Below are positions 53,685 through 62,891 of a stretch of DNA of 64,000 bases, piece after piece. The notes beneath the pieces were generated by a model. It searched no databases, was not told where the DNA came from, and saw only the letters and a program-made list of their open reading frames with translations. Location of the stretch: positions 1 through 64,000 of the forward strand of contig NZ_BPKW01000010.1 in NCBI RefSeq assembly GCF_019656015.1. The letters run 5' to 3'. Within the stretch, counting starts at the first letter, position 1. Each line of letters begins with the position of its first letter. Origin of the DNA: Leuconostoc inhae. GTDB lineage: Bacteria; Bacillota; Bacilli; Lactobacillales; Lactobacillaceae. The position numbers were made by a program, and so were the translations under genes.

Positions 53685-54095
53685 TTACTTTGTTTCACAA
53701 TCAATAATGAACTTTGCAAAATCATCTAGGTTGCCTTTAAATGATTTGACGTTATCTAGAAAATAGAAAGTAGATGTCAGATCAAAATTTTCTATTTCAT
53801 TATTGACATCTAAAATATATATTCTTTTCTTTAGAGCAGTGGCAATACCAAATTCAATATTAGATCCTTTACCACTTGGAAAGATAAAGACAAGAAAGTC
53901 TGATTGCTGAACTCCTTGTAACTCTTCGTTAGCAATCCTATGTAATCGGTCAATAGAATCAGCTTTTTTATTGACTGTCCAATCGTAGGTGCGCATACAT
54001 GATTGGTTTTCTAGCCTATCAGCCAAATTATTAATTAATCTTGAATATTTAAAAGAACCAGCAATAGAAAATTTTGTTTTGTTATTTTGAGACAT
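53685..54095 (-). CDS. Nucleoside 2-deoxyribosyltransferase-like protein
   Basis: A 136-residue Rossmann-like protein. SIAGSF near residue 10, TYDWT near 39, and the pattern ELQGVQQSDFLVFIFPSGKG then NIEFGIATALKK match the nucleoside deoxyribosyltransferase/DUF4406 group, including the catalytic-type Glu. The enzyme family swaps bases on deoxyribose, and relatives hydrolyse nucleotides. ATG 54095 is preferred because AAGGA lies upstream; TTG 54113 would add six residues. No metabolic partner is nearby. An extended -10 TGATATAAT (54123-54115) precedes it. Confidence 0.65.
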   Translation of the reverse strand: MSQNNKTKFSIAGSFKYSRLINNLADRLENQSCMRTYDWTVNKKADSIDRLHRIANEELQGVQQSDFLVFIFPSGKGSNIEFGIATALKKRIYILDVNNEIENFDLTSTFYFLDNVKSFKGNLDDFAKFIIDCETK

Positions 54096-54114
54096 ATCAT
54101 TTTCCTTGAACAAT

Positions 54115-54123
54115 ATTATATCA
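54115..54123 (-). promoter_or_regulatory. Extended -10 promoter of the deoxyribosyltransferase-like gene
   Basis: Minus strand TGA-TATAAT, 20 nt before the start at 54095. No good -35. Confidence 0.5.
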
Positions 54124-54147
54124 ATAGATAATACCTTGATTCTTGTG

Positions 54148-54538
54148 CTGAAAGTTTAGTTTAAAAAGAACACTGAAATTGATAAGTATGTGGCGAACAG
54201 CAATCATAATAAGTAGGGCACTAATAATAATTTGACGCGGCGCTTGTCCAAAATATATTTAATACTAATTGAGCATACATGAAAATATACAAGGCTTGAC
54301 GGTTGTTTGTTACAAAATTTAGATTAGCACAATAAATACCTAGTAAAATATAAAGTAATCCCCATGCAGGTCCAAAAAGCCATTTTGGTGGCGCTAGTGG
54401 TGGTAAATTCAACCCATCATATATGGTGCCTATTGACACACCACGGATCCACGACACACGCAACGATGATAATGTGCCAAGAGCTAGAATAACGGCAATA
54501 AATAATATGGCTTTGATTGTGACAGAATATTTTTTCGT
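54148..54538 (-). pseudogene. tspO: tspO-like gene, broken (start lost, frameshifted)
   Basis: TspO/MBR tryptophan-rich membrane protein in pieces. The pattern YDGLNLPPLAPPKWLFGPAWGLLYILLGI and the following AQLVLNIFW are clear TspO helices. The SD AAAGGCGG (54552-54545) is followed at normal spacing by ACG (54538-54536), where ATG is expected; the next codons continue KKYSVTIKAI in frame. The frame stops at 54221 after NIFWT. A further helix (ISALLIMIAVRHI) continues in another frame, and the last TspO helix is missing. Loss of start, a frameshift and a truncation all point to decay. Confidence 0.75.
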
Positions 54539-54629
54539 GTTAAACCGCCTTTGTTTTCTATATCAAAGTTTGTTTTTAGTTTATGACAAATTGCAATGTA
54601 ACAAACATGCCAAATCAAATGGAAATTAT

Positions 54630-55484
54630 TTATTTTGAAAGTGTTTTATATGTCGCTCGGGATAAGGCATTCACGTAATCAATGCCAGCGTCTTGTGTAT
54701 GGCCGCCGTTTGACAGTATGGCGATTGTATAATTAACGTTATCATTTTTTACATGTCCGATGCTATTAACAATTGCATTTTGGTAGTTATCATTAAGCGG
54801 TAACCAACCGTTTTTAAGTTCTACTACGGTGTCATCGCTAACGCCAGTGGATATACCCCAATCTTGATCTTCATTCACATGATTCATTAAGTTAATAATA
54901 TAATTGCTGTCTGATTGAGATATTATTTTATGGCGATAAAACAGTTCATTTAATAATTTCAACTGATCTGTTGCTGTTGTTTGAGTCAATCCCCAAGTTT
55001 GATTAATGTTAGAATTTTTCATATCTAGTTTTTGGAATAATTTAGGAAACTGATAAATACCACCGAGTGACACCGTCATTTCAGTAGTGGCGTCATTGTC
55101 TGAGTCTTCAATCATTTGTGTTGCTAATATTTTGTCATCGTCGGTTAGTTCACCGAGAGACATTTTATACGTGAGAATAAATACTTTGATGATGCTAGCA
55201 GTGGGATACTTGTTTTTAGAACCATGGGTAAATTTATATACTTTACCTGTTTTTTTGTCATAAACTGCAATTTGAGCGTTTTTTATATCATCTGTATCGA
55301 CTTTGGACCATGTACGTTGTAATTGTCGATTTAAATTAGTGGCTGTTGTTTTATTATTATGAGTTGTTTGCTGATCGTAATTTGTAGAGGCACCTAGCAC
55401 AAGTGCAACAACAATAATGACAGCGGCGATGGCTAATTTTTGTTTGTCAAGCATCAGTACTTTTTTAATTTTTCTAATATTCAT
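54630..55484 (-). CDS. Class A beta-lactamase-like serine hydrolase, membrane-anchored
   Basis: 284 residues. A hydrophobic N-terminal segment (about 15-33) anchors or exports it. The penicillin-recognising fold follows, with S97-x-x-K100 in TASIIKVF, SDN at 128-130, and K-N-G at 224-226 in place of KTG. The omega-loop Glu of true class A enzymes is not obvious. It is therefore more likely a peptidoglycan-related hydrolase of the PF13354 type than a resistance enzyme. No SD precedes ATG 55484; ATG 55454 is an alternative. Confidence 0.78.
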   Translation of the reverse strand: MNIRKIKKVLMLDKQKLAIAAVIIVVALVLGASTNYDQQTTHNNKTTATNLNRQLQRTWSKVDTDDIKNAQIAVYDKKTGKVYKFTHGSKNKYPTASIIKVFILTYKMSLGELTDDDKILATQMIEDSDNDATTEMTVSLGGIYQFPKLFQKLDMKNSNINQTWGLTQTTATDQLKLLNELFYRHKIISQSDSNYIINLMNHVNEDQDWGISTGVSDDTVVELKNGWLPLNDNYQNAIVNSIGHVKNDNVNYTIAILSNGGHTQDAGIDYVNALSRATYKTLSK

Positions 55485-55797
55485 GAGGACGGGCCATGGT
55501 TTCTTGATTTGAGATTGCTGTATTAATCGTTTTCACTAAATCGATTAATACAGGTACCGTTAATGTACCATATTCACCATGTTTACGTCAGCTAAATAAC
55601 TTTGTAACACATACAAGTTACTTTGTTCTCTTGTTCATTATTTTTAACTTATAGTTTTATTTAAGATATTAAACGCCACAAAAATAAAGTAGCCTAAATA
55701 CATTTCTGTGATTAGGCTACTTATGACAATAACACAATAAATCTGTCACTTTTTTAAAGAAAGCATTCAGTGTCTATGAAAATAGGCGAGGTTTTCC
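55485..55797. promoter_or_regulatory. Gap with tandem palindromes and a terminator
   Basis: 313 bp. A perfect 12-bp inverted repeat CTGTATTAATCG/CGATTAATACAG (55518-55529 with 55542-55553) adjoins GGTAC/GTACC (55554-55570), just upstream of the beta-lactamase-like gene on the minus strand: operator or leader hairpin. AAGTAGCCTAA/TTAGGCTACTT (55687-55722) is the terminator of the next minus-strand gene. No ORF was seen. Confidence 0.6.
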
Positions 55798-56838
55798 TTA
55801 TTCTGTGATTAGTTTTTTAACTTGTTTAAATTTAGGGTCGCCCTTATATTGTGTATATAATGAGCTCAAACTTTTGGTGCCAACGGTTTCAGCACCAGCG
55901 TCTTGTTCCACACCTGATACGCGTGTGCCTTGATTTTTGTAAGTAATTGCATCACCAGAAATTGTGAAGTAACCTTGCTTATAAGTTGTATTATCAATAT
56001 TGCTAGGGACGTTATTCAACTTCACGATGTTTTTGACACCATCTAATGAAATGACGACGCCTGAAAAGGTCACATCCGTAATTTTGCCATTGTTTACATC
56101 GACGTGTGTTGAATCAAATGCATTACTTGTGACATTTGATTTGCCTGATAAAATTGTGTCGACAGTTAGGTCACCATAATCAGATACAAATCCTGAAGGT
56201 AGACCTAAGAGTGCCAGGGCTTGTTTGTCGATATTAGATAATGCATTAATTGCGCTTGTATCAGTTGTTGATACTTCCTTTTGAAGGGTGTATATATTTT
56301 CTTCACCAAATTGTTGACCAGAATAAATTCTATCTTGCGAACTGTCAGATGAACCACTAAAAGTCACATTTTTTGGAATAAAGTAAAGTGGAACTGACAT
56401 AGATGCACCCTCTGTTGGTAAGGGATCAGCGCCTATCTCTGCTTTTAACATGCTATCTTCGATTTTGGCTTTATCAAGATACACTTTTCCTTTTGGTACA
56501 GTTTGTCCAGAACTTGAACGAGACAGTAAACCTGTTCTGCTAAAAACAAAAGTATCGCCGGCTGGGTTTGACCATGTGCCGCTAACGCTTGAAAAATTGT
56601 TCGCCTTGATTTGCGTTAAATTCATACCAATGTTATTTTTTGTTGCAGTTGAGGATGATGATTTAATGGTTTCACTTGACGTGCTGGTGCTTTTTGATCG
56701 GGTTGCCGGCTTTTTTGCCTGTTGTGCCTTTTTACTGCTGTGCTGTGTCGGCATTTGATTTACTGCTGCATAAACTCCTACAACGCCCAAACTTAAGACA
56801 ACTGCACCAGAGATTAACCATGTTAGTTTTCTGTTCAT
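55798..56838 (-). CDS. Exported protein with DUF6287-like domain
   Basis: 346 residues from ATG 56838 (SD AAAGGA). An N-terminal hydrophobic segment (about 5-27) without a lipobox, a Ser/Lys/Thr-rich linker (about 35-75), then GMNLTQIKANNFSSVSGTW followed by N-P-A-G-D-T-F, which resembles the DUF6287 domain of Gram-positive surface proteins. The rest is an extracellular beta-rich region. Function unknown; the domain name is from memory of its pattern. Confidence 0.7.
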   Translation of the reverse strand: MNRKLTWLISGAVVLSLGVVGVYAAVNQMPTQHSSKKAQQAKKPATRSKSTSTSSETIKSSSSTATKNNIGMNLTQIKANNFSSVSGTWSNPAGDTFVFSRTGLLSRSSSGQTVPKGKVYLDKAKIEDSMLKAEIGADPLPTEGASMSVPLYFIPKNVTFSGSSDSSQDRIYSGQQFGEENIYTLQKEVSTTDTSAINALSNIDKQALALLGLPSGFVSDYGDLTVDTILSGKSNVTSNAFDSTHVDVNNGKITDVTFSGVVISLDGVKNIVKLNNVPSNIDNTTYKQGYFTISGDAITYKNQGTRVSGVEQDAGAETVGTKSLSSLYTQYKGDPKFKQVKKLITE

Positions 56839-56864
56839 AATTTTTTCCTTTGTGACGTAATCGT

Positions 56865-56912
56865 AAAAAAAGGCCAGAGACACGTTAATAATCGTCTTCT
56901 TTGGCCTTTTTT
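56865..56912 (-). terminator. Terminator of the small membrane-protein gene at 56951
   Basis: AGGCCA/TGGCCT (56871-56876 with 56902-56907) with T and A runs on both sides. Confidence 0.8.
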
Positions 56913-56950
56913 GCAGTATGAGTGTGTTGTTATTGGCAAGTTAGAATTTA

Positions 56951-57475
56951 CTAATTGTTACGCAAGCCATCAACGATTGTTTGAGCATTCTCTTGAGAAT
57001 GTTTTCTAACGTTTCTATCATCGTAAAACTTTGCAATTTCTGCTAACACTTGTTCTTCGAACTCGGCAACGTGATTAGCTTCAAAAAATGGTAAATAAAC
57101 TCGCTTTTCGACACCATTTCGTTCGTAAGCAAAAACTGTGATAATACCACTACCGAAAATGCCTACACCAATAAGTGCAAGAACAATACCTACTAGTGGA
57201 GAACTTGATAGTGCCATAAGACCACCAATTGCAATTATTAATCCTAAAAATATACGGCCAATTTTAAACTCTTTGTTCGAAGAAACGTTTGAAACATTTC
57301 CTAAAGGTGATGAATCTTTTGTCATTCCTGCTGGAATCATTCCGAATAAAATCGTGTTTTGCATCTTTATCTTTAAAAATCCATCTGGTGATACGTACAT
57401 ATTTCCTTTTATCCAAGGGGTAACAAGACTTACAGCAAAGTCTTTGTTAGTAGAAGTTTGAATTGATTCAACCAT
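56951..57475 (-). CDS. Membrane protein of unknown function
   Basis: 174 residues from ATG 57475 (SD AGGAGA 8 nt upstream). A soluble N-terminal part of about 75 residues is followed by two adjacent helices (about 76-115) and a C-terminal cytosolic part rich in Glu and Lys. The layout resembles PH-like or DUF-type membrane proteins, but I do not recognise a family. Part of a run of minus-strand envelope genes. Confidence 0.6.
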   Translation of the reverse strand: MVESIQTSTNKDFAVSLVTPWIKGNMYVSPDGFLKIKMQNTILFGMIPAGMTKDSSPLGNVSNVSSNKEFKIGRIFLGLIIAIGGLMALSSSPLVGIVLALIGVGIFGSGIITVFAYERNGVEKRVYLPFFEANHVAEFEEQVLAEIAKFYDDRNVRKHSQENAQTIVDGLRNN

Positions 57476-57547
57476 TATAAAATCTCCTAAAAGCTTTTTT
57501 CGTGATTCATTATTGCACGTATTTGATGATGATTTATAATATAACAC

Positions 57548-57829: not shown

Positions 57830-57841
57830 ATGGAGAATAAT

Positions 57842-58195
57842 ATGTTACTCTTTAAACGAACTAAAAAAAATAATGAGTCAAAGCTAGATGAAGATATTGT
57901 TTCACGTACGACTTTTGATGCGATGCAACAAGAAAATGATCAATTGTTAGATCAGTTAGAGACGTTGAAGCTGGATGTTTCAGAATTAACAGAAAGAAAT
58001 CAACATTTAACAGAACAATTAACACGTAGTAAGTATCATCAATCTATGGTTAAAACCATCATGGGACTGAGCGCCTTAATTATTAGTTTTGCGGTGTTGT
58101 ATCTACTTAATGAGGAACCACAATATACAGCAATGTTGCTTTTAATTGAAGCGGTATTTATCTTTATGATGCTAAGGAGTAGTGATAAATCATGA
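57842..58195 (+). CDS. Coiled-coil membrane protein of unknown function
   Basis: 117 residues from ATG 57842 (GGAGAA just upstream; ATG 57830 is less likely). A basic start, then a heptad-rich coiled coil (about 25-68, QQENDQLLDQLETLKLDV region), then two membrane helices (about 74-111) that end near the C-terminus. I do not recognise it. Its stop overlaps the tpiA start by 4 bp, so the two proteins are made together. Confidence 0.6.
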   Translation: MLLFKRTKKNNESKLDEDIVSRTTFDAMQQENDQLLDQLETLKLDVSELTERNQHLTEQLTRSKYHQSMVKTIMGLSALIISFAVLYLLNEEPQYTAMLLLIEAVFIFMMLRSSDKS

Positions 58196-59004
58196 CTAAG
58201 ACACATAAGGCACAGCGGGTGCCATTTGTCGTTGCTAATTGGAAAATTAACAAGTTACAGGCAGATGTTGTTGATTTTTTGGCGCAGGTTAATGGTAAAG
58301 TGCCAGATCAACGAGTAGTTGAGACAGGAATTGCAGCACAAGATTTGTTTTTGTCAGATATGGTCCGTGCGACGGCAGATTCACCAATTCATGTTGTGGC
58401 TGAAAATGTTCATTGGGAAGATAGTGGGGCCTACACAGGTGAAACATCACCTCGGGCTTTAAAAGATATTGGTGCAAAATATGTATTAATTGGCCACTTT
58501 GAACGTCGAAAATTTTTCAATGAGACAGATTCAACAGTTAATTTAAAAGTGACTGCAGCCTTACGAAACGGCTTACGTCCAATTATTGATGTTGATGAAG
58601 ATATGAGCACATATGCACAGTTTATGGACGCCGAACCTTCTGTTGCCCAAGTAGCTGCAGCATTAGCTGGCGTTTCCGTGGATCAAATTAGAAATGTCAC
58701 TATTGCATATGAACCCACATGGGCAATTGGTTCTGGTGAGGCAGCTAGCGCTGATCAAGCACAAAAAGCAGCGCATCTTATCCGTCAAACATTGGCTAAA
58801 CTGTATTCGCCAGTTATTGCTGAGCAAGTTCGAATCCTTTATGGCGGCTCAGTAACACCTAATAACGCACGTGAAATTATGTTGCAAAATGACATAGACG
58901 GCGTTCTTGTTGGCACAGCAGCATTAGACCCAACACAATTTCTACAATTAGTTGAAATTGTACGTGATCCAAACGTGCCAGAATTTGATGTGGATCACAT
59001 TTAA
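58192..59004 (+). CDS. tpiA: Triosephosphate isomerase, divergent
   Basis: TIM-barrel enzyme interconverting glyceraldehyde 3-phosphate and dihydroxyacetone phosphate. Catalytic Lys18, His102 and Glu174 are present. Conserved neighbours differ: GHSERR reads GHFERR (Phe103), CVGE reads DVDE (Asp133), the lid GTGK reads GSGE (180-183), and LVGGAS reads LVGTAA (Thr242). Length 270 is slightly above the usual 250. Activity may be weak or altered. A heterofermenter needs little TIM flux. Another tpiA elsewhere cannot be excluded. It is coupled to the gene upstream. Confidence 0.85.
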   Translation: MTKTHKAQRVPFVVANWKINKLQADVVDFLAQVNGKVPDQRVVETGIAAQDLFLSDMVRATADSPIHVVAENVHWEDSGAYTGETSPRALKDIGAKYVLIGHFERRKFFNETDSTVNLKVTAALRNGLRPIIDVDEDMSTYAQFMDAEPSVAQVAAALAGVSVDQIRNVTIAYEPTWAIGSGEAASADQAQKAAHLIRQTLAKLYSPVIAEQVRILYGGSVTPNNAREIMLQNDIDGVLVGTAALDPTQFLQLVEIVRDPNVPEFDVDHI

Positions 59005-59084: not shown

Positions 59085-59276
59085 AATACTGTGAATAAAT
59101 ACGGCATTTTGCGAAATATTGTCCGCAATACCTTTATATTGAAGCAAACGTTGTCTGCGGAAACAGCGGCGATTGCTTTTTTTGTGCCTATGCGGTGATG
59201 AAATCTAGAATAAAAGTGATTTTGTAACTAAATTGTAACAAACAGAACGCAGTGAAAAACAAGTGAGGTGATAAAT
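59085..59276 (+). promoter_or_regulatory. rpoB leader with attenuator-like fold (Lacto-rpoB candidate)
   Basis: A terminator hairpin joins AAGCAA (59142-59147) to TTGCTT (59173-59178) with internal pairs and a T run to 59183. CCGCA (59123-59127) can pair with TGCGG (59156-59160), which would break it, but also sits in TATTG/CAATA (59117-59130). Mutually exclusive folds suggest attenuation. Lactobacillales carry a described Lacto-rpoB motif at this site; membership is by position. Confidence 0.6.
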
Positions 59277-62200
59277 GTGGCAGGACATTTAGTAAAGTAC
59301 GGTAAGCATCGTACCCGTCGTTCATATGCTAGCATCAAAGAAGTACTTGATGTGCCTAATTTGATTGAAATTCAAACGGCATCATATCAATGGTTCTTGG
59401 ATGATGGTATCAAAGAAATGTTTGGCGACATCATGCCGATTGATGATTTCCAAGGAACATTATCATTGGAATACGTCGATTATCAATTGATGGAACCAAA
59501 ATATAATATTGATGAGGCGCGTGAACACGACGCCAATTATTCAGCACCATTACACGTAACCTTGCGTTTGACAAACCATGAAACTGGTGAAATTAAGTCA
59601 CAAGACGTGTTCTTTGGTGATTTCCCACTAATGACGGAACAAGGAACGTTCATTATTAACGGTGCGGAACGTGTTATCGTTTCACAATTAGTGCGTTCCC
59701 CTGGAATTTATTACAACCAAGAAAATGATAAAAATGGTCGACCACGCTATGGTACGACTGTTATCCCTAACCGTGGTGCATGGTTAGAATATGAGACAGA
59801 TGCCAAAGGTATTGCTAACGTTCGTATTGATCGTACACGTAAGTTATTGATGACTGAGTTAGTACGTGCCCTTGGATTTGGTTCGGATTCAGACATTCTT
59901 GATATTTTTTCTGATCAATATGACGCATTGAACATGACTTTGGAAAAAGATGTGCACAAAGACATGTCTGATTCACGTGTTGAAGAAGCTTTGAAAGATG
60001 TTTACGAACGCTTGCGTCCAGGTGAACCTAAAACTGCTGACTCATCACGTGCCTTATTAGTTGCACGCTTCTTTGATCCAAAACGTTACGATTTAGCTTC
60101 TGTTGGTCGCTACAAGATTAACAAGAAATTGTCGTTGAAGACACGTTTGTTGAATCATACATTGGCGGAAACATTAGCAGATCCAGATTCTGGTGAAGTA
60201 ATCGCTGAAAAAGGAACAACAGTTGATAAGACAGTCATGTCGAAGTTAAGTCCATTTTTGGAACGTGAAGACTTTAAAACGACAACATATACACCTTCTG
60301 GGGATGCTGTACTTGAAGAACCTGTAGTACTCCAAAAAATCAAAATCGAATCACCTGAAGATCCTGAAAAGACTTTGGTTCTAATTGGTAATGGTCATAT
60401 TGATGAAAATGATCGTACGGTACGTCCTGCGGATATTTTAGCTGGTATGAACTACTTCTTGAATTTGCAAGAAGGTATCGGAAATGTCGATGATATTGAT
60501 CACTTAGGAAATCGCCGAATTCGTTCAGTTGGTGAATTGTTACAAAACCAATTCCGTATTGGTTTGACACGTATGGAACGTGTTGTACGTGAACGTATGT
60601 CAATTCAAGATGCCAACACAGTAACACCACAACAATTAATTAACATTCGACCTGTTGTTGCTGCTGTGAAAGAGTTCTTTGGGTCGTCACAATTATCACA
60701 GTTTATGGATCAAACAAACCCATTAGGAGAGATGAACCATAAGCGTCGACTATCAGCTCTTGGACCTGGTGGTTTGACACGTGATCGTGCTGGTGTGGAA
60801 GTTCGAGATGTGCACTACACTCATTACGGCCGTATTGATCCAATCGAAACGCCAGAAGGTCCTAACATTGGACTAATCAACTCGTTAGCTACTTATGGTC
60901 GTATTAATAAGTATGGCTTTATCGAAACACCATATCGTCGTGTCGATTGGACAACACATATGGTTACTGACAAAATTGACTATTTGACAGCTGATGAAGA
61001 AGATAACTTTATCGTGGCACAAGCAAACTCACCTTTGAATGATGATGGTAGCTTTGTTCATGACACAGTAATGGCCCGTTTCGGTGAAGAAAACATTGAA
61101 ACACCAATTGATCGTATTGATTATATGGATGTGTCGCCCAAGCAAGTCGTCTCTGTTGGAACTGCTGCTATTCCTTTCTTGGAAAACGATGATTCTAACC
61201 GTGCTTTAATGGGCGCTAACATGCAACGTCAAGCAGTGCCTTTGCTTGATCCACATGCACCTCTTGTTGGGACAGGTATTGAGTACAAAGCTGCCCACGA
61301 TTCAGGTGTTGCCATGATTTCACGTGCAGCTGGTATGGTTGAATATGTTGATGGTCATGAAATTCGTATTCGTCGTGAAGATGGTCAATTGGATCATTAT
61401 GAATTAATGAAATTCCGTCGTTCTAACGGTGGAAAAAACTATAACCAAAAGCCAATTATTCATGAAGGTGAACATGTTGAAGCTGATGAAGTTTTGGCTG
61501 ATGGTCCTTCAATGGAACAAGGCGAATTAGCTTTGGGACAAAACCCATTAATTGCATTCATGACTTGGCAAGGTTATAACTTCGAAGATGCTATCGTCTT
61601 GAACGAACGTTTGGTTCGTGAGGATGTTTATACATCAATTCATATTGAAGAATATGATTCAGAAGCACGAGATACAAAACTCGGACCTGAAGAAATGACA
61701 CGTGAAATTCCTAACACTGGTGAAGATCAGTTGAAGGATTTAGATGCTGACGGTATTATTCGCGTTGGAGCTGAAGTACATGATGGCGACATTCTAGTCG
61801 GTAAAGTGACACCTAAGGGTGTCACAGAATTATCAGCTGAAGAACGTTTGCTTCATGCTATCTTTGGTGAAAAAGCGCGTGAAGTGCGTGATACATCACT
61901 ACGTGTTCCTCATGGTGGTGGTGGTGTCGTTCAAAACGTTCGTATTTATACACCAGAAAATGGTGATGAATTAGCACCAGGCGTTAACATGATGGTACGT
62001 GTTTATATCGCTCAAAAGCGTAAAATTCAAGTCGGAGATAAGATGGCTGGTCGTCATGGTAACAAGGGAACTGTTTCCGTTGTTGTTCCTGAAGAAGACA
62101 TGCCATATATGCCAGATGGTACGCCAATTGATATCTTGTTGTCACCCATGGGTGTGCCTTCACGTATGAATATTGGTCAAGTACTTGAATTACATCTTGG

Positions 62201-62891
62201 TTTTGCTGCTAAAAAGTTAGGTATTCATGTTGCATCACCTGTCTTTGATGGTGCTAGCGATGATGAAATTGAAGCTGCTTTGCGCGAGGCAGGTTTGCCA
62301 CAAGATGGTAAATCAGTGGTTTATGATGGCCGTACTGGTGAAGCATTTGATAAACGTGTTGGTGTTGGTGTCATGCATTATATGAAATTGGCCCACATGG
62401 TCGATGATAAAATTCATGCACGTTCAATCGGACCTTACTCACTTGTTACGCAACAGCCTTTGGGTGGTAAAGCACAATTTGGTGGACAGCGTTTCGGTGA
62501 AATGGAAGTTTGGGCACTTGAAGCATATGGCGCTGCTTATACTTTGCAAGAAATTTTGACATATAAGTCAGATGATGTTGCTGGTCGTGTGAAAGTCTAC
62601 GAGTCAATTATCAAGGGTGAACCAATTCCACGTCCAGGTGTCCCAGAATCATTCCGAGTTCTTGTGAAGGAATTGCAGGCACTTGGATTGGATATGCAAG
62701 TTTTGGATGGTGCGGGTAGTGAAGTTGAATTACGTCAAATGGACGAAGATGATTCAATCTTACCTGTTGATGCACTTGAAAAGTTAGTGCGTTCAAATCC
62801 TGACTTATTGAACAAAGAAGACGATGAAGTAGCCGCAGCATTCTTGAAGGTCACATCGCAAGATACGATTCAAACAAACGACGAAGTTTAA
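59277..62891 (+). CDS. rpoB: RNA polymerase beta subunit
   Basis: Catalytic beta subunit. 1204 residues from GTG 59277, which follows GAGGTG at 6 nt; GTG 59268 overlaps that SD and is less likely. The rifampicin region [21 protein letters not shown] and LSALGPGG reads as susceptible type. The conserved C-terminal [18 protein letters not shown] is present. It is the first gene of rpoBC, behind a leader with alternative folds. Confidence 0.98.

Follow-up and report, generated by a model that had tools for sequence, protein, structure and literature searches.

Lid-hinge and active-site changes in the triosephosphate isomerase of Leuconostoc and of other Lactobacillaceae without phosphofructokinase

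Triosephosphate isomerase (TIM) is the textbook catalytically perfect enzyme. In PMC12874384, Ser96 is described as hydrogen-bonding the carboxylate of the catalytic Glu165 in unliganded (open) TIM, lid residue Trp168 as bonding Glu129, the phosphate as being held by the backbone amides of residues 171, 211, 232 and 233, and changes at S96 and V167 as suppressors of an E165 defect. PMC3431843 states that Cys126 contacts the catalytic Glu and is in all TIMs, that C126 mutants of other TIMs lose stability more than activity, and that the activity of yeast TIM is slightly affected by C126A/S; because these last enzymes stay active, Cys126 was not treated here as TIM-defining. In the open-licence PMC literature we found no paper on altered TIM residues in heterofermenters.

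The window, by which we mean the whole 64,000-nucleotide stretch of Leuconostoc inhae DNA analysed here (contig NZ_BPKW01000010.1, positions 1 to 64,000), carries a TIM that the initial annotation placed at 57842-59004 (+). The end of that interval is right and its start is not: the true start is 58192, and 57842-58191 is part of a separate ORF outside the TIM. The genes concerned are as follows:

57830..58195, + strand: 121-aa ORF upstream of tpiA, overlapping it by 4 bases, non-TIM (family matches all sub-threshold)
58192..59004, + strand: tpiA, triosephosphate isomerase, 270 aa (ORF, Pfam TIM, TIGR00419, predicted fold)
59268..62891, + strand: rpoB, downstream of tpiA (neighbouring ORF)

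Farther upstream, at 53685-57547, the minus strand carries a nucleoside deoxyribosyltransferase-like ORF (below cut-off), a Beta-lactamase2-family ORF, a DUF6287 ORF and one ORF without a confident family.

The window TIM scores 266.5 bits against Pfam TIM (PF00121; cut-off 20.1) and 182.8 bits against the NCBIfam TIM equivalog TIGR00419 (cut-off 130.6), and with 199 bits it misses the cut-off of 293 of the tighter equivalog NF000722 (PRK00042.2-1). Its score was the second lowest among 137 full-length best hits in our phylum search. An AlphaFold2 model built with 21 sequences (pLDDT 87) has as its best PDB match the bacterial TIM 2btm (TM 0.89 by query and 0.96 by target, 44% identity), and model and match together describe a (beta/alpha)8 barrel. 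The protein is 99% identical to the TIMs of Leuconostoc gelidum KCTC 3527 and L. inhae. By these measures it is a true triosephosphate isomerase, with GAP-DHAP activity predicted.

A search of the genome for a second canonical tpiA, which the initial annotation had proposed, returned none: the window TIM is the only full TIM there, accompanied by a far paralogue of 89 bits (Pfam TIM) at G000:C14:30975-31655 (L002). Like the window TIM, this paralogue has a TIM domain and, by motif, K, H and E at the catalytic positions; unlike it, it falls below the TIGR00419 cut-off (62 against 130.6), its lid is replaced and its LVGGAS motif reads LIGDRY. Its family (L002, L021-L024, L188-L190, L192 and L193) consists of proteins of about 230 aa with the motifs NFK, GHLERR/GHIERR and LIGDRY/LIGDRF, and occurs in 5/19 Leuconostoc genomes and in genera g8, g18, g32 and g36; it is the sole TIM-like gene found in G053. 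Its neighbours vary by genus, and in Leuconostoc include a cinA-like ORF (judged by its start alone).

For comparison, TIM and phosphofructokinase (PFK) were sought in the same 201 Lactobacillaceae genomes. Three sets of TIMs were then read residue by residue: 110 main TIMs of PFK-less genomes (99 from the search plus 11 from extra genus genomes that were classed without a PFK search of their own), 55 of the 98 TIMs of genomes with PFK (PFK+), and, as controls, 70 Bacillota TIMs from 149 genomes searched (the best 30 loci and 40 spread down the match list). Residue numbers from 96 to 235 are chicken/yeast numbers mapped by motif (the cited papers themselves name 96, 126, 129, 165, 168, 211, 232 and 233; the rest were obtained by counting), and window numbers run over the 270-aa ORF. 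The residues of interest, with window numbers first, are these:

58243..58245, + strand: Lys18 (K12), catalytic, kept (invariant in the 110 PFK-less, 55 PFK+ and 70 control TIMs)
58495..58497, + strand: His102 (H95), catalytic, kept (residue alignment of TIMs)
58498..58500, + strand: Phe103, Ser96 elsewhere (S in 70/70 controls and 55/55 PFK+, F in 39/110 PFK-less)
58588..58590, + strand: Asp133, Cys126 elsewhere (C in 70/70 controls and 54/55 PFK+)
58594..58596, + strand: Asp135, Gly128 elsewhere, loop 5, clade-diagnostic (G in 125/125 controls and PFK+, D/E in 110/110 PFK-less)
58603..58605, + strand: Met138, Leu elsewhere (L in 55/55 PFK+ and 67/70 controls, M in most PFK-less)
58711..58713, + strand: Glu174 (E165), catalytic base, kept (residue alignment of TIMs)
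58717..58719, + strand: Thr176, residue 167, lid hinge, clade-diagnostic polar (S/T/N/R in 110/110 PFK-less, I/V/L in 125/125 others)
58732..58734, + strand: Ser181, Thr172 of the lid tip elsewhere (controls and PFK+ comparison)
58915..58917, + strand: Thr242, Gly233 elsewhere (G in 68/70 controls and 55/55 PFK+, very variable in PFK-less)
58921..58923, + strand: Ala244, Ser235 elsewhere (controls and PFK+ comparison)

All four altered motifs first reported are present in the 270-aa ORF (GHFERR at 101-106, DVDE at 133-136, GSGE at 180-183 and LVGTAA at 239-244), and the catalytic triad is kept as described, with NWK, GH, YEP and YGGS intact. The accompanying statement that the altered positions are almost invariant holds for Ser96, Cys126 and Gly128 (each 70/70 in the controls), Thr172 (69/70), Gly233 (68/70) and Ser235 (68/70), and does not hold for the lid residue Lys174 in chicken/yeast numbering, whose change to Glu is unremarkable because K is found in just 41/70 controls. 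The change at residue 167 (Thr176) is an addition to the original list. Where near-invariant means ungapped and at least 95% invariant in both the Bacillota controls and the PFK+ relatives, the window TIM deviates at 7 of about 47 such positions (103, 133, 135, 138, 181, 242 and 244), and in the place of the Cys126 that lies near the catalytic Glu it has Asp133. Judged by contacts taken from papers on other TIMs, the changed residues would surround the catalytic base, the lid hinge and the phosphate loop, with the chemistry itself probably intact.

But are these changes peculiar to Leuconostoc? A TIM match was present in 199/201 Lactobacillaceae genomes and PFK exceeded its cut-off in 97/201. 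The main TIM scored at least 302.6 bits in 97/97 genomes with PFK and at most 301.1 bits in 99/104 genomes without it, a gap that is thin at its edge (302.6 against 301.1 bits). The other five genomes without PFK were G080 (327 bits), G034 (242 bits, aberrant), G053 (far paralogue only), and G045 and G177 (no TIM found); G080, which is 65% complete and has a genus-mate with PFK, was counted as PFK+ by genus, and the remaining four lie outside the set of 110. Residue 128 was acidic (103 D, 7 E) and residue 167 was S, T, N or R in every one of the 110 PFK-less TIMs, as against Gly128 with Ile, Val or Leu at 167 in 55/55 PFK+ and 70/70 control TIMs. The 128/167 lid-hinge changes are thus clade-wide over PFK-less Lactobacillaceae and not a Leuconostoc oddity. 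Asn16, Lys18, His102, Glu104, Glu174, Pro175, Gly180, Tyr217, Gly218, Gly219, Ser220, Leu239 and Gly241 (window numbers) were unchanged in 110/110, and most other near-invariant positions are also conserved in the PFK-less TIMs; 172, 233 and 235 vary freely within the clade.

The combination F103/D133/D135 was found in 19/19 genus genomes and in 13 named Leuconostoc loci. Phe96 always occurs with Asp126 (39/39), in genera g1 (Leuconostoc), g2, g7, g8, g29 and g39, of which g2 is probably Fructobacillus and g7 probably Convivina from motif matches to named loci. Genus g18 combines Ser96 with Ala126, and the extra copies in that genus combine Tyr96 with Ala126; Cys126 may therefore have been lost before Ser96.

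Several other TIM-like genes were seen. Extra copies inside the PFK-less clade (L153-L160 in g6, L176-L178 and L181 in g18, L185 in g26) often read GHIERR/CTDE or GHYERR/AIAE, and one extra copy in G062 directly adjoins an aldolase gene. The TIM of G034 (L175, genus g17) reads GYSQRR, with the catalytic His replaced by Tyr; no PFK, PGK (phosphoglycerate kinase) or GpsA C-terminal domain was found in this 87% complete genome, and decay of glycolysis is possible there. Another TIM-like family (L191, L194 and L196-L198; motifs NPK and NHxE) occurs in some PFK+ genomes, where L191 and L196 adjoin a class II aldolase-like ORF (judged by first residues alone).

A TIM tree in which each genus was represented by at most two main and three extra sequences groups 34 main and 7 extra TIMs from PFK-less genera in a single clade (100/100; stem 0.30), and only G034 lies outside it. 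PFK-less lactic acid bacteria have been found to be monophyletic (PMC4667430). Our rpoB tree of 30 genomes did not recover the PFK-less genera as one clade, with G022 weakly placed among them, and a single PFK-less clade was not rejected on the rpoB data (p-AU 0.189). PFK loss in the family is thus one event, and the family-wide association has n=1. Elsewhere in the phylum, six PFK-less genomes (two of them from one family) had a median TIM score of 283.5 compared with 330.8 in 130 PFK+ genomes (p = 0.003; fragments G336, G266, G325, G339 and G286, and also G356, were left out), with G285 (72% complete) and G346 off the trend; the one TIM of these six that was read (L342, G283) keeps Gly128.

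The distance of TIM to 30 outgroups, measured in 68 genomes, was 1.07 for PFK-less and 0.78 for PFK+ genomes, against 0.71 and 0.69 for PGK, and the TIM/PGK distance ratio was 1.35-1.64 in 33 PFK-less and 1.05-1.21 in 35 PFK+ genomes, with no overlap. The absence of such a shift in PGK rules out a genome-wide speed-up as the cause of the TIM divergence. Relative to PGK, the codon adaptation of TIM was 0.64 for Leuconostoc, 0.61 for g6 and 0.91 for g26, compared with 0.89-1.02 for six PFK+ genera; when the PGK of the genome itself served as reference, genus means were 0.57-0.81 in six PFK-less and 0.79-1.00 in eleven PFK+ genera (p = 0.0003). Among the 43 ORFs of the window TIM ranks 20th in codon adaptation and rpoB 8th; TIM codon bias is lost to the level of an average gene. 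The pgk gene lies within about 1.5 kb of tpi in 35/35 PFK+ loci, 14/21 other PFK-less loci and 0/18 Leuconostoc loci, so tpiA no longer sits near pgk in the Leuconostoc branch.

The initial annotation had raised relaxed selection linked to the phosphoketolase lifestyle and proposed dN/dS across the genus as a check. For the PFK-less clade as a whole, relaxation is supported, mainly in the past, by the score drop, the TIM/PGK distance and the codon bias. It is not supported for Leuconostoc today: we looked for raised present-day evolution by dN/dS across the genus and saw none, the median for TIM being 0.039, strong purifying selection (PGK 0.042), from the 42 of 171 pairs that were usable (in the other 129 dS was saturated or outside 0.05-2). 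The within-genus TIM/PGK ratio was 1.76, 2.84 and 3.74 in PFK-less genera, the value of 1.76 being that of Leuconostoc, and 0.72-3.14 in PFK+ genera, which gives no clear sign of acceleration continuing inside genera. Because dN/dS is low and its ratio lies within the PFK+ range, the Leuconostoc TIM is not decaying now.

GpsA is present in 19/19 Leuconostoc genomes, and the host genome has one aldolase over the TIGR01859 cut-off (356 bits), so the demand on TIM is not nil and some FBP-side use is possible. A 1951 report is said to have found aldolase and TIM activity missing from extracts of Leuconostoc; no argument here rests on it. In L. reuteri, another heterofermenter, PMC6821008 gives about 7% flux via the upper glycolytic route.

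We regard as the probable reading that the window gene encodes a working, low-expression, low-flux TIM with a small GAP-DHAP supply, remodelled when the loss of PFK lowered the demand on it. That loss would have taken place in the common ancestor of the heterofermentative Lactobacillaceae, after which hexose carbon no longer entered as FBP and TIM would have stopped carrying half of the glycolytic flux; its remaining duty would be DHAP from GAP for glycerol-3-phosphate and lipids (GpsA), and it would also serve a minor aldolase in those genomes that have one. Lower demand would have removed selection for high expression or catalytic perfection. On the stem, an acidic residue may have been fixed at 128 (in loop 5, beside Glu129, which hydrogen-bonds hinge Trp168) and a polar one at hinge position 167. 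The Leuconostoc branch would later have exchanged Cys126 for Asp and Ser96 for Phe, both beside catalytic Glu165, and its phosphate loop (233, 235) would have drifted. From sequence we infer low flux, altered lid opening and closing, a reduced kcat/Km, and a rate that is lower and presumably sufficient.

Relaxed constraint explains the rate shift, and rate, codon usage and free variation at 233 all fit it; the universal, invariant 128/167 pair fits a coupled change, and is easier to see as a linked alteration of the lid that became fixed than as random decay. Counting against the low-demand reading are the single PFK loss in the family, the six-genome phylum set with its two exceptions and a retained Gly128, the thin score gap between the classes and the aldolase of the host genome. 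In addition, TIM codon bias is almost fully retained (0.91) in one PFK-less genus, g26; relaxation on its own would not lead one to expect 128 and 167 to differ in all descendants without reversion; C126 mutations in other TIMs cost stability more than activity; and the TIM of Plasmodium functions with Phe96.

An alternative we think rather unlikely is that Asp/Glu128 and Ser/Thr167 were fixed by selection for a lid-opening bias and are now maintained, the benefit being a slow GAP-to-DHAP supply, limited DHAP or methylglyoxal, or added regulation. An acidic 128 with a polar 167 in 110/110 without reversal, a long stem followed by low dN/dS in Leuconostoc, and the conservation of most other near-invariant positions speak for such retuning; yet the pair arose once, so that epistasis acting as a ratchet may account for its universality, the free variation at 172, 233 and 235 is what relaxation predicts, and the lost codon bias points to low demand. 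Since there was one event, relaxation and selected retuning are inseparable.

Near-neutral drift by coupled, compensated substitutions, with ordinary TIM kinetics retained and expression alone reduced, seems to us distinctly doubtful. Phe96 in Plasmodium TIM and the little effect of C126A/S on yeast TIM activity (PMC3431843) agree with it, as do the S96 and V167 suppressors of the E165 defect (PMC12874384), which imply that compensated sets exist; but Cys126 to Asp, a carboxylate beside the catalytic Glu, is non-conservative, and 7 of about 47 near-invariant positions are altered at once.

That the window TIM isomerises another sugar phosphate, a new substrate also entertained in the initial annotation, is very improbable, even though the TIM fold includes paralogous isomerases that act on other sugar phosphates, such as L-erythrulose-1-phosphate isomerase (chain 11ef). 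None of the catalytic and substrate-contacting positions that we tested differs in any of the 110 PFK-less TIMs, the TIGR00419 cut-off is passed, this is the sole full TIM of a genome whose GpsA needs DHAP, and the nearest solved structures are ordinary TIMs. The L-erythrulose-1-phosphate isomerase type was rejected, as the 60 best whole-protein matches are without exception named TIM and do not include 11ef. An artefact, be it an error in sequencing, a pseudogene or an aberrant TIM gained by horizontal transfer, which nothing beyond the odd residues themselves would suggest, is refuted by the same residues in all the genus genomes and named loci, the open frame, and a TIM tree that places the window TIM with relatives inside Lactobacillaceae.

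We offer tentatively, as a possibility short of an even chance, a clade-wide re-engineered TIM: a hinge rewired by an acidic 128 and a polar 167 with PFK loss, the Ser96 and Cys126 that rest on the catalytic Glu replaced by Phe and Asp in the Leuconostoc branch, and so a directional step away from catalytic perfection to a new gating of the catalytic base, set by pathway flux. This bears on how far glycolytic flux maintains the perfection of TIM. One clade was apparently released from that flux once, and its more than 100 descendants, with intact sister lineages as controls, form a natural experiment; the changes fall on lid and catalytic-Glu residues known from mutagenesis, where kinetic tests are concrete and cheap. 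The printed statement that Cys126 is in all TIMs (PMC3431843) needs qualifying.

How does the window TIM compare with described enzymes? With bacterial TIM (PF00121, TIGR00419) it has in common the fold, the length, Asn16, Lys18, His102, Glu104, Glu174 and the YGGS phosphate loop, and it differs by S96F, C126D, G128D, V/I167T, T172S, G233T, S235A and Leu to Met at window residue 138; the TIM of Streptococcus pneumoniae (5ibx) is about 45% identical to it. One of the altered motifs also occurs in a well-studied TIM: Plasmodium falciparum TIM (the solved chains 1lyx/1ydv/3pvf, identified as such in PMC3431843) has Phe96 and reads GHFERR as the window TIM does, but it keeps Cys126, mutants of which are described in that paper, where the window TIM has Asp. 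The TIMs of PFK+ Lactobacillaceae are orthologues of the window TIM and its nearest outgroup in the TIM tree, and unlike it they have G128 and I167 (55/55 read), strong codon bias and an adjoining pgk.
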